Of a DNA stretch of 64,000 nt, positions 17,113-17,983 are shown piece by piece (position 1 is the first letter of the stretch; each line of letters opens with the position of its first letter). The stretch covers positions 1 to 64,000 of the forward strand of contig JACDEU010000002.1 of assembly GCA_013816245.1 (NCBI GenBank), given 5' to 3'. The stretch is from Actinomycetota bacterium (GTDB lineage Bacteria > Actinomycetota > Thermoleophilia > Gaiellales > Gaiellaceae). The position numbers and the translations under genes are program-made. Under the pieces are notes generated by a model, which worked only from the letters and a program-made list of their open reading frames with translations, was not told the DNA's origin and searched no databases.

Positions 17113-17597
17113 CCCGCGTAGCCGTCATCTCCGACACGCATCTCCCGCGCGGCACACGGGCGCTGCCCGACGAGTGCGTGCGCCTCGTAGCGGGTGCCGA
17201 TCTCGTGCTGCACGCCGGCGACTTCGTGTCTTCGCAATTCCACGACGAGCTGCGCAAGCTTGGGCCGCCGCTCGAGGGCGTGGCCGGCAACATGGACGAA
17301 GCGGCGCTGAAGCAGGCGCTGCCGACGCAACGCGTGGTCGACGTTGCCGGGGTGCGGATCGCCATGGTGCACGACGCCGGGCCGCGTGCGCGGCGGGAGG
17401 CGCGCCTGGCGGCCAGATTCGAAGACTGCGCGGCCGTCGTCTACGGCCATACCCACGTTCCGCAGGTCGATCAGTTCCAGCATCTCTGGGTCCTGAACCC
17501 GGGCTCGCCGACCGAGCGCCGAAGCTCGCCGACCCACTCGATGATCGTCCTGACCATTCAGGCCGGCCGGATCACTCCGGAATTGGTCACTTTGTAG
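17109..17597 (+). CDS. YfcE/MJ0936-type metallophosphoesterase, probable CTG start
   Basis: 162 residues if started at CTG 17109, which overlaps the TGA of the aminopeptidase gene. The phosphoesterase motifs need this N-terminus: AVISDTHLP (D-x-H) lies before the first ATG/GTG/TTG in frame (GTG 17178). LHAGDF, VAGNMD, MVHDAG and YGHTH follow in order, giving a complete two-metal site, although the usual GNCD/GNH reads GNMD. Small proteins of this group are Mn-dependent phosphodiesterases. A GTG 17178 start would delete the first metal motif, so CTG by coupled re-initiation is the better call. Confidence 0.8.
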   Translation: MTRVAVISDTHLPRGTRALPDECVRLVAGADLVLHAGDFVSSQFHDELRKLGPPLEGVAGNMDEAALKQALPTQRVVDVAGVRIAMVHDAGPRARREARLAARFEDCAAVVYGHTHVPQVDQFQHLWVLNPGSPTERRSSPTHSMIVLTIQAGRITPELVTL

Positions 17598-17599
17598 CC

Positions 17600-17743
17600 A
17601 TGACGTGGCTCGCGCTCGTCTATCTCGCCTGCGTCGTCATCACGATCGTGCTGATCGTCTACGTCGTGCGTGTTTACGGCGATCTGAGGCTCATCCAGGA
17701 ATCACTTGACAAGGCGAACAGGTGTTCGTTACCCTACGAACAC
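17600..17743 (+). other. In-frame N-terminal extension or separate small membrane ORF
   Basis: From ATG 17600, three bases after the phosphoesterase stop, an open frame encodes a hydrophobic helix (MTWLALVYLACVVITIVLIV) and runs without a stop into the LysM gene. Codon bias is strong up to about 17700 and fades inside the SOS promoter. It may give a long constitutive form of the LysM protein from the operon promoter, or be a separate gene that lost its stop. Confidence 0.45.
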
Positions 17744-17750
17744 ATGTTCC
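17706..17750 (+). promoter_or_regulatory. LexA-controlled promoter with two SOS boxes
   Basis: TTGACA (17706-17711), an 18-base spacer and TACCCT (17730-17735) form a promoter. CGAACAGGTGTTCG (17715-17728) fills the spacer and CGAACACATGTTCC (17737-17750) covers the start site and the ATG at 17744. Both match the LexA consensus CGAAC-N4-GTTC of Gram-positive bacteria and Actinobacteria. Repressor binding would block both polymerase entry and the start codon. Confidence 0.8.
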
Positions 17751-17983
17751 CTCGAGTCGCAGTCTTGCTCCTGGCCATCTCCCTCGTGGTGGGCGTCGTG
17801 GCCCGGCCATCCGGCGGCGCGGGCAAGCCTGTGCCCTATCTGGTGAAGCCGACGGACACCCTTTGGTCGATCGCGGCCGCCCACTACGCGGGTGACCCTC
17901 GCGAGGGCATCTGGAAGCTCCAGCACCGCAATCACCTGCAAGGGACGACGCTCGTTCCAGGGCAGCGGCTCGTCCTGCCCTAG
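17744..17983 (+). CDS. SOS-induced membrane LysM protein (YneA/ChiZ-like)
   Basis: 79 residues from ATG 17744: a short N-terminal membrane segment (FPRVAVLLLAISLVVGVVA) and a C-terminal LysM domain (YLVKPTDTLWSIAAAHYAGD ... LVPGQRLVLP). The mRNA should be leaderless, since the -10 hexamer ends eight bases before the ATG. B. subtilis YneA and mycobacterial ChiZ (Rv2719c) are LexA-controlled LysM membrane proteins linked to division arrest or wall remodelling during DNA damage. The size, layout and tandem LexA boxes here point to the same role. Unlike those genes, it is not next to lexA in this window. The in-frame extension from 17600 is discussed separately. Confidence 0.75.
   Translation: MFPRVAVLLLAISLVVGVVARPSGGAGKPVPYLVKPTDTLWSIAAAHYAGDPREGIWKLQHRNHLQGTTLVPGQRLVLP

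Follow-up and report, generated by a model that had tools for sequence, protein, structure and literature searches.

The LysM domain is a general peptidoglycan-binding domain that occurs also in hydrolases and other envelope proteins, and hydrolase activity has been reported for ChiZ. In YneA from Bacillus subtilis, the membrane helix binds TM7 of FtsW and brings the protein to the septum, binding of peptidoglycan by the LysM domain is needed to block septal synthesis, and residues D46 and T47 are required for this binding (PMC13396833). ChiZ (Rv2719c) from Mycobacterium tuberculosis is an actinobacterial, SOS-controlled membrane-LysM protein (PMC6851548), and in this respect resembles the Gaiellales protein described here.

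The gene considered below is located in a 64-kb window, i.e., the whole stretch of DNA that was analysed, from a draft genome of 3.16 Mb in 123 contigs. We conclude that it is probably an SOS gene under repression by LexA that encodes a YneA/ChiZ-like division inhibitor, and in which operator and start codon are fused in an unusual way. A search of the open-access literature returned no paper that deals with control by LexA in Gaiella or Thermoleophilia, and none on LexA in connection with leaderless starts.

Organization of the locus

The features of the locus are listed in Table 1. The first-pass annotation had proposed a promoter of the form TTGACA-N18-TACCCT (17706–17735) and two LexA boxes, one of them over the start codon; the promoter is present in the sequence as described, and both boxes are found at the expected coordinates and are kept across relatives. 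Box 2 covers the ATG (17744–17746) of the 79-codon gene, and the transcript should for that reason be leaderless. A gene of the YfcE family is also found upstream of lysM in many relatives.

Table 1. Features of the lysM locus, with positions in the window.
Feature	Position	Strand	Basis
Upstream gene, YfcE-family phosphodiesterase (stop 17595–17597)	17178..17597	+	Metallophos_2 E 1.3e-29; TIGR00040 yfcE above cut-off
Stretch peculiar to this genome; from ATG 17600, a hydrophobic 36-residue peptide in frame into promoter and lysM	17598..17705	+	
-35 hexamer TTGACA	17706..17711	+	Sequence
LexA box 1, CGAACAGGTGTTCG, within promoter spacer	17715..17728	+	0 mismatches to CGAACANNTGTTCG
-10 hexamer TACCCT, spacer 18 nt	17730..17735	+	Sequence
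LexA box 2, CGAACACATGTTCC, start codon at centre	17737..17750	+	1 mismatch to CGAACANNTGTTCG
Putative SOS gene of lysM type, leaderless by position, 79 aa	17744..17983	+	ATG 17744–17746
Predicted membrane helix, residues 5–21, after Arg4	17756..17806	+	Kyte-Doolittle
LysM domain, residues 32–79	17837..17980	+	Pfam
Longer in-frame reading, 127 aa, open, not conserved	17600..17983	+	

No other site with fewer than two mismatches to the LexA-box pattern is present in the 64-kb window. In the 3.16-Mb genome, pairs of boxes separated by 3–20 nt occur at two places, as against none for the reversed control pattern, and these two places are the LysM gene and imuB only. The mismatch scan of the window and the tandem count in the genome together rule out a chance origin of the boxes. 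Control of the lysM gene by LexA through the two boxes is the best reading of this arrangement, with binding of LexA itself predicted from the operator sequence.

Conservation of the operator-start-codon fusion

Homologs were searched for in this genome and 150 relatives and were found in 108 of the 151. The sample used for conservation consists of 96 homologs from the order Gaiellales, 95 of which have upstream DNA. A box of the form CGRACNNRTGTTC is exactly centred on the start codon in 94 of these 95 (87 ATG and 7 GTG), and by our tally a start-codon-embedding box is seen in all 38 genera of the order that have a homolog; the exception, L114, has box 1 only. The regular expression used for counting demands RTG, but the outcome was the same when box positions had first been listed without RTG, relative to the start placed by BLAST. 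The same embedding is seen in 19 Gaiellales-like loci of a named genome collection, the genomes of which partly overlap the main sample. The operator-start-codon fusion is thus deeply conserved across the order. A coding frame conserved in relatives without its boxes had been named by the first-pass annotation as evidence against its reading, and the outcome is the opposite, in that the boxes are retained in relatives and the 17600 frame is not.

Box 1 is kept in 86 of 94 relatives, at a distance of 21–26 nt (mostly 22–25) from box 2, and the eight relatives that are devoid of box 1 all retain box 2. TTGAC is found at most 52 nt from the start codon in 85/94 relatives, and a promoter with both TTGAC and TANNNT in 77/94, mostly with a spacing of 17–18. 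The -10 element ends 7–11 nt before the start codon, so transcription should begin at the start codon or within a few nucleotides of it. A leaderless short form, as suggested earlier, is accordingly supported by the position of the start codon, both inside box 2 and relative to the -10 element in relatives. Codon 2 is TTC (Phe) in 94/94 relatives, and among the 63 Phe codons elsewhere in these genes 9 are TTT. At the centres of box 1, RT occupies the matching position in only 45 of 86 cases, which indicates that RTG is found in box 2 because this site must also provide the start codon. The locus is thus a clear example, in nature, of bases shared between a repressor operator and the start codon of a predicted leaderless mRNA.

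The SOS regulon

In this genome, lexA is found on contig C7 with CGAACACACGTTCG directly upstream, and the lysM gene on contig C67. The motif CGAAC-N4-GTTC is present upstream of lexA, uvrA, ssb, dprA, imuB, and a radical-SAM gene; the LexA motif of Streptomyces is tCGAAC-N4-GNNCGa (PMC9380542). Judged by these sites, the predicted regulon is the standard actinobacterial SOS regulon. The lysM gene shares the features of its members, with two boxes that overlap the promoter and carry the motif common to lexA, uvrA, ssb, dprA, and imuB, and with a box retained by 94 of the 95 order homologs that have upstream DNA. A repressor other than LexA is unlikely, because the same box fronts these five genes. 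Genome-wide, the 13-base pattern has 28 matches in the forward orientation and 18 for the reversed control, which is only a modest excess, and single matches inside genes therefore mean little; some of the other matches to the box do lie within genes and are probably chance occurrences.

The imuB gene (C67:149717–149745; L126, L221), which encodes a Y-family polymerase, also has tandem LexA boxes, where the second overlaps the -10 element and ends just 5' of the start codon. This tandem is a strict match in 29 of 30 loci (L126/L221, L222–L250), and the 30th has one mismatch. The imuB and lysM products should be costly if made without damage, and we suggest that tandem LexA operators are reserved here for the two costliest SOS products, i.e., a division brake and a mutagenic polymerase. 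The stretch read upstream of recA (C67:80920) in this genome has no CGAAC-N4-GTTC box, and a GAAC-N4-GTTC box is found at most 250 nt upstream of recA in 5 of 30 recA loci of the family (L137, L271, L282–L311). The genome has a second LysM gene (C42:74407), which we rejected as a candidate SOS brake since the sequence read upstream of it contains no LexA box.

A possible second type of upstream promoter

In seven of the eight relatives without box 1, the gene is preceded by CGTCCG-N10/11-TANNNT (L067, L068, L070, L073, L080, L081, and L089). The same pattern is present upstream of lexA and recA in this genome (C7:2238 and C67:80838), precedes lexA in L109–L113, and is among its 26 matches also found in front of genes for RuvC, NucS, RmuC, ScpA, a ParA-like ATPase, and ribonucleotide reductase (L253–L278). 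Because the total is no higher than that of the control (26 versus 27), only the gene content is suggestive. Upstream of recA, the pattern was seen in 11 of the 30 loci, and the adjoining 1000 nt further upstream contain no match in any of them. The RecA-independent motif of mycobacteria is tTGTCRgtg-N8-TannnT (PMC5656591), in which GTC is placed 12 nt from the -10 element, as in CGTCCG-N10. Furthermore, this genome has an open frame of 675 residues (C66:4516–5757; L279, L281) that, with its two WYL domains, resembles naturally fused PafBC (PMC6789036). The CGTCCG element may thus be a PafBC-type damage promoter, which we regard as a lead.

A broader view can be put forward, tentatively and with somewhat less confidence than doubt. 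The start codon of the brake gene in Gaiellales would be part of the LexA operator, which would fix the beginning of the protein as Met-Phe (or a Val-codon start followed by Phe) in almost every member. This module would be constant and the upstream part exchangeable, in most cases TTGACA and a second box, and in at least seven species CGTCCG-N10/11-TANNNT, which resembles a PafBC-type RecA-independent promoter and would place the brake under two damage systems.

The encoded protein

The 79-residue protein begins with a short segment containing Arg4, which is followed by a single hydrophobic helix and, over residues 32–79, by a LysM domain (Pfam PF01476, E 1.8e-10). The first-pass annotation had described a membrane segment followed by LysM, as in YneA and ChiZ, and this composition is borne out by hydropathy, Pfam, and the fold of the model. 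The highest Kyte-Doolittle value over 17 residues is 2.62, from residue 5. In the 94 homologs, the hydropathy of the helix has a minimum of 1.74 and a median of 2.45, and Arg or Lys is present within residues 3–12 in every case (94/94). The AlphaFold2 model (mean pLDDT 80) has a helix at residues 2–19 and the strand-helix-helix-strand fold of LysM, with 4uz2 as the best match among solved LysM domains (Foldseek E 2e-3, probability 1.00). The single N-terminal membrane helix and the C-terminal LysM domain that characterize proteins of the YneA/ChiZ type are thus both present. A DT pair at the start of LysM is nearly invariant among the homologs.

The NCBIfam YneA profile (NF010723) matches all 42 of the aligned homologs, a number reached by no other family, and covers both helix and LysM in the window protein. 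The score of this protein is 29.8 bits, which is below the equivalog cut-off of 60. The similarity of a 48-residue domain is, in any case, weak proof of shared function.

Proposed mechanism

The sequence, the identity of the motif with that of the SOS regulon in this genome, the conservation of the fusion, and the domain composition are shown by the data above. The start site, leaderless translation, topology, and LexA binding of the LysM gene are inferred, and the following scheme should be read in that light. In undamaged cells, LexA dimers would occupy the two operators, about two helical turns apart. With box 1 between the -35 and -10 elements, and with both the start codon and the site of transcription initiation covered by box 2, RNA polymerase would be tightly blocked. 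Upon damage, RecA assembled on single-stranded DNA would promote cleavage of LexA, and both operators would be freed. Translation of the resulting leaderless mRNA, with a 5' end about 0–3 nt from ATG 17744, would not involve a Shine-Dalgarno site. The 79-residue product would insert via its single N-terminal helix and expose LysM on the outside, on nascent septal peptidoglycan, where it would delay septation until repair is done. Division inhibition as such is a prediction, and FtsW is a putative target by analogy with YneA.

Alternative explanations

Since box 1 by itself overlaps the promoter core and would repress, box 2 might be considered a by-product of a crowded leaderless promoter, with no function of its own. 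This is highly improbable given that box 2 is the better conserved of the two (94/95 versus 86/94), is kept where box 1 has been lost, and is followed by an invariant TTC codon despite the use of TTT elsewhere in the same genes. A different proposal relates to the longer frame. The first-pass annotation had suggested that an operon transcript could yield a long form with an additional membrane helix, and damage the short leaderless form; read-through from the yfcE operon would then give a product of 127 residues with two membrane helices. The frame 17600–17983 is indeed open, with ATG 17600 only 2 nt past the end of yfcE, and GC content by codon position is coding-like (0.60/0.29/0.83) over the first 36 codons (17600–17705). 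A conserved long form must nevertheless be rejected, as the 36-residue peptide is absent from all 9 other genomes of the genus, and a search of 129 genomes of the order gave no clear counterpart, with a single weak stray match (E 0.03, 41% identity). Apparent longer matches in two relatives are due to chance alignment to the YfcE C-terminus. In several relatives of the genus the yfcE stop immediately precedes TTGACA, and in most relatives the frame closes shortly upstream of the embedded start. In 72 of 94 loci, no other start codon precedes the embedded one within its open frame. An open upstream frame is not remarkable in itself, since at least 48 open codons are found in 14/94 loci, and codons 37–48 are merely promoter-operator DNA read as protein. 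Because the 17600 frame is peculiar to this genome, the proposal of two forms is left without support elsewhere, and we find it barely credible. On the basis of its composition and the hydrophobic peptide, the stretch 17598–17705 could instead be a small young gene.

More weight must be given to the alternative that the product is an SOS envelope protein that protects or remodels peptidoglycan, for example by modulating a hydrolase, while septation continues. LysM binds peptidoglycan generally, several members have additional weak matches to LysM hydrolases and to LysM proteins with other functions, and, against a division brake, the YneA cut-off is missed and the gene is not beside lexA. On the other hand, YneA is the one profile that matches all 42 members with the membrane part included, and 79 residues leave no room for a catalytic domain. 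Outside the order, the closest relatives are for the most part encoded next to lexA, like the known inhibitors (PMC6851548), and the tight tandem repression fits a product that is harmful in undamaged cells. We therefore consider a role other than division inhibition unlikely, and retain the division inhibitor as the preferred reading.

Comparison with known systems

A related promoter arrangement is found in another family of the class, f6, where lexA itself has tandem LexA boxes, the second of which is centred on the lexA start in 5 of 6 cases (L106, L110, L111, L112, and L113), and where a LysM gene follows lexA at a short distance in the same orientation. As for lysM in Gaiellales, the tandem boxes follow TTGACA, and the second is centred on ATG or GTG followed by TTC. 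The two arrangements differ in box spacing, which is 28–29 in f6 compared with mostly 22–25 in Gaiellales, and in that the embedded start belongs to lexA in f6. The two promoter-start modules may have a common ancestor.

Divergent orientation next to lexA, which is the position of the YneA and ChiZ genes (PMC6851548), is found for 46 of the best 80 matches in a collection of 84,980 species. In Gaiellales, the lysM gene adjoins yfcE or other genes rather than lexA, and in the present genome the two are on different contigs, in agreement with the earlier remark that the gene is not next to lexA. A search beside lexA would therefore miss the division-brake loci of Gaiellales.

The Gaiellales protein is similar to B. 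subtilis YneA in its predicted control by LexA, its single N-terminal membrane helix, and its C-terminal LysM domain, and the near-invariant DT pair at the start of LysM probably corresponds to D46/T47 in YneA. It differs in scoring below the equivalog cut-off, in not being encoded divergently from lexA, and in its length of only 79 residues, and the gene differs in being leaderless by position, with its start codon inside a LexA box. The ChiZ gene, in contrast, adjoins lexA, and we know of no operator-embedded start for ChiZ. DivS from Corynebacterium glutamicum and SosA from Staphylococcus aureus are small, single-helix SOS division inhibitors encoded next to lexA (PMC6851548), but both lack a LysM domain. 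Overall, the Gaiellales protein is like YneA and ChiZ in make-up and control, and is best called YneA/ChiZ-like, a name chosen because it departs from these proteins in lexA neighbourhood and in equivalog score. With this assignment, YneA/ChiZ-like SOS checkpoints would extend to a deep actinobacterial order, apparently unstudied in this respect.
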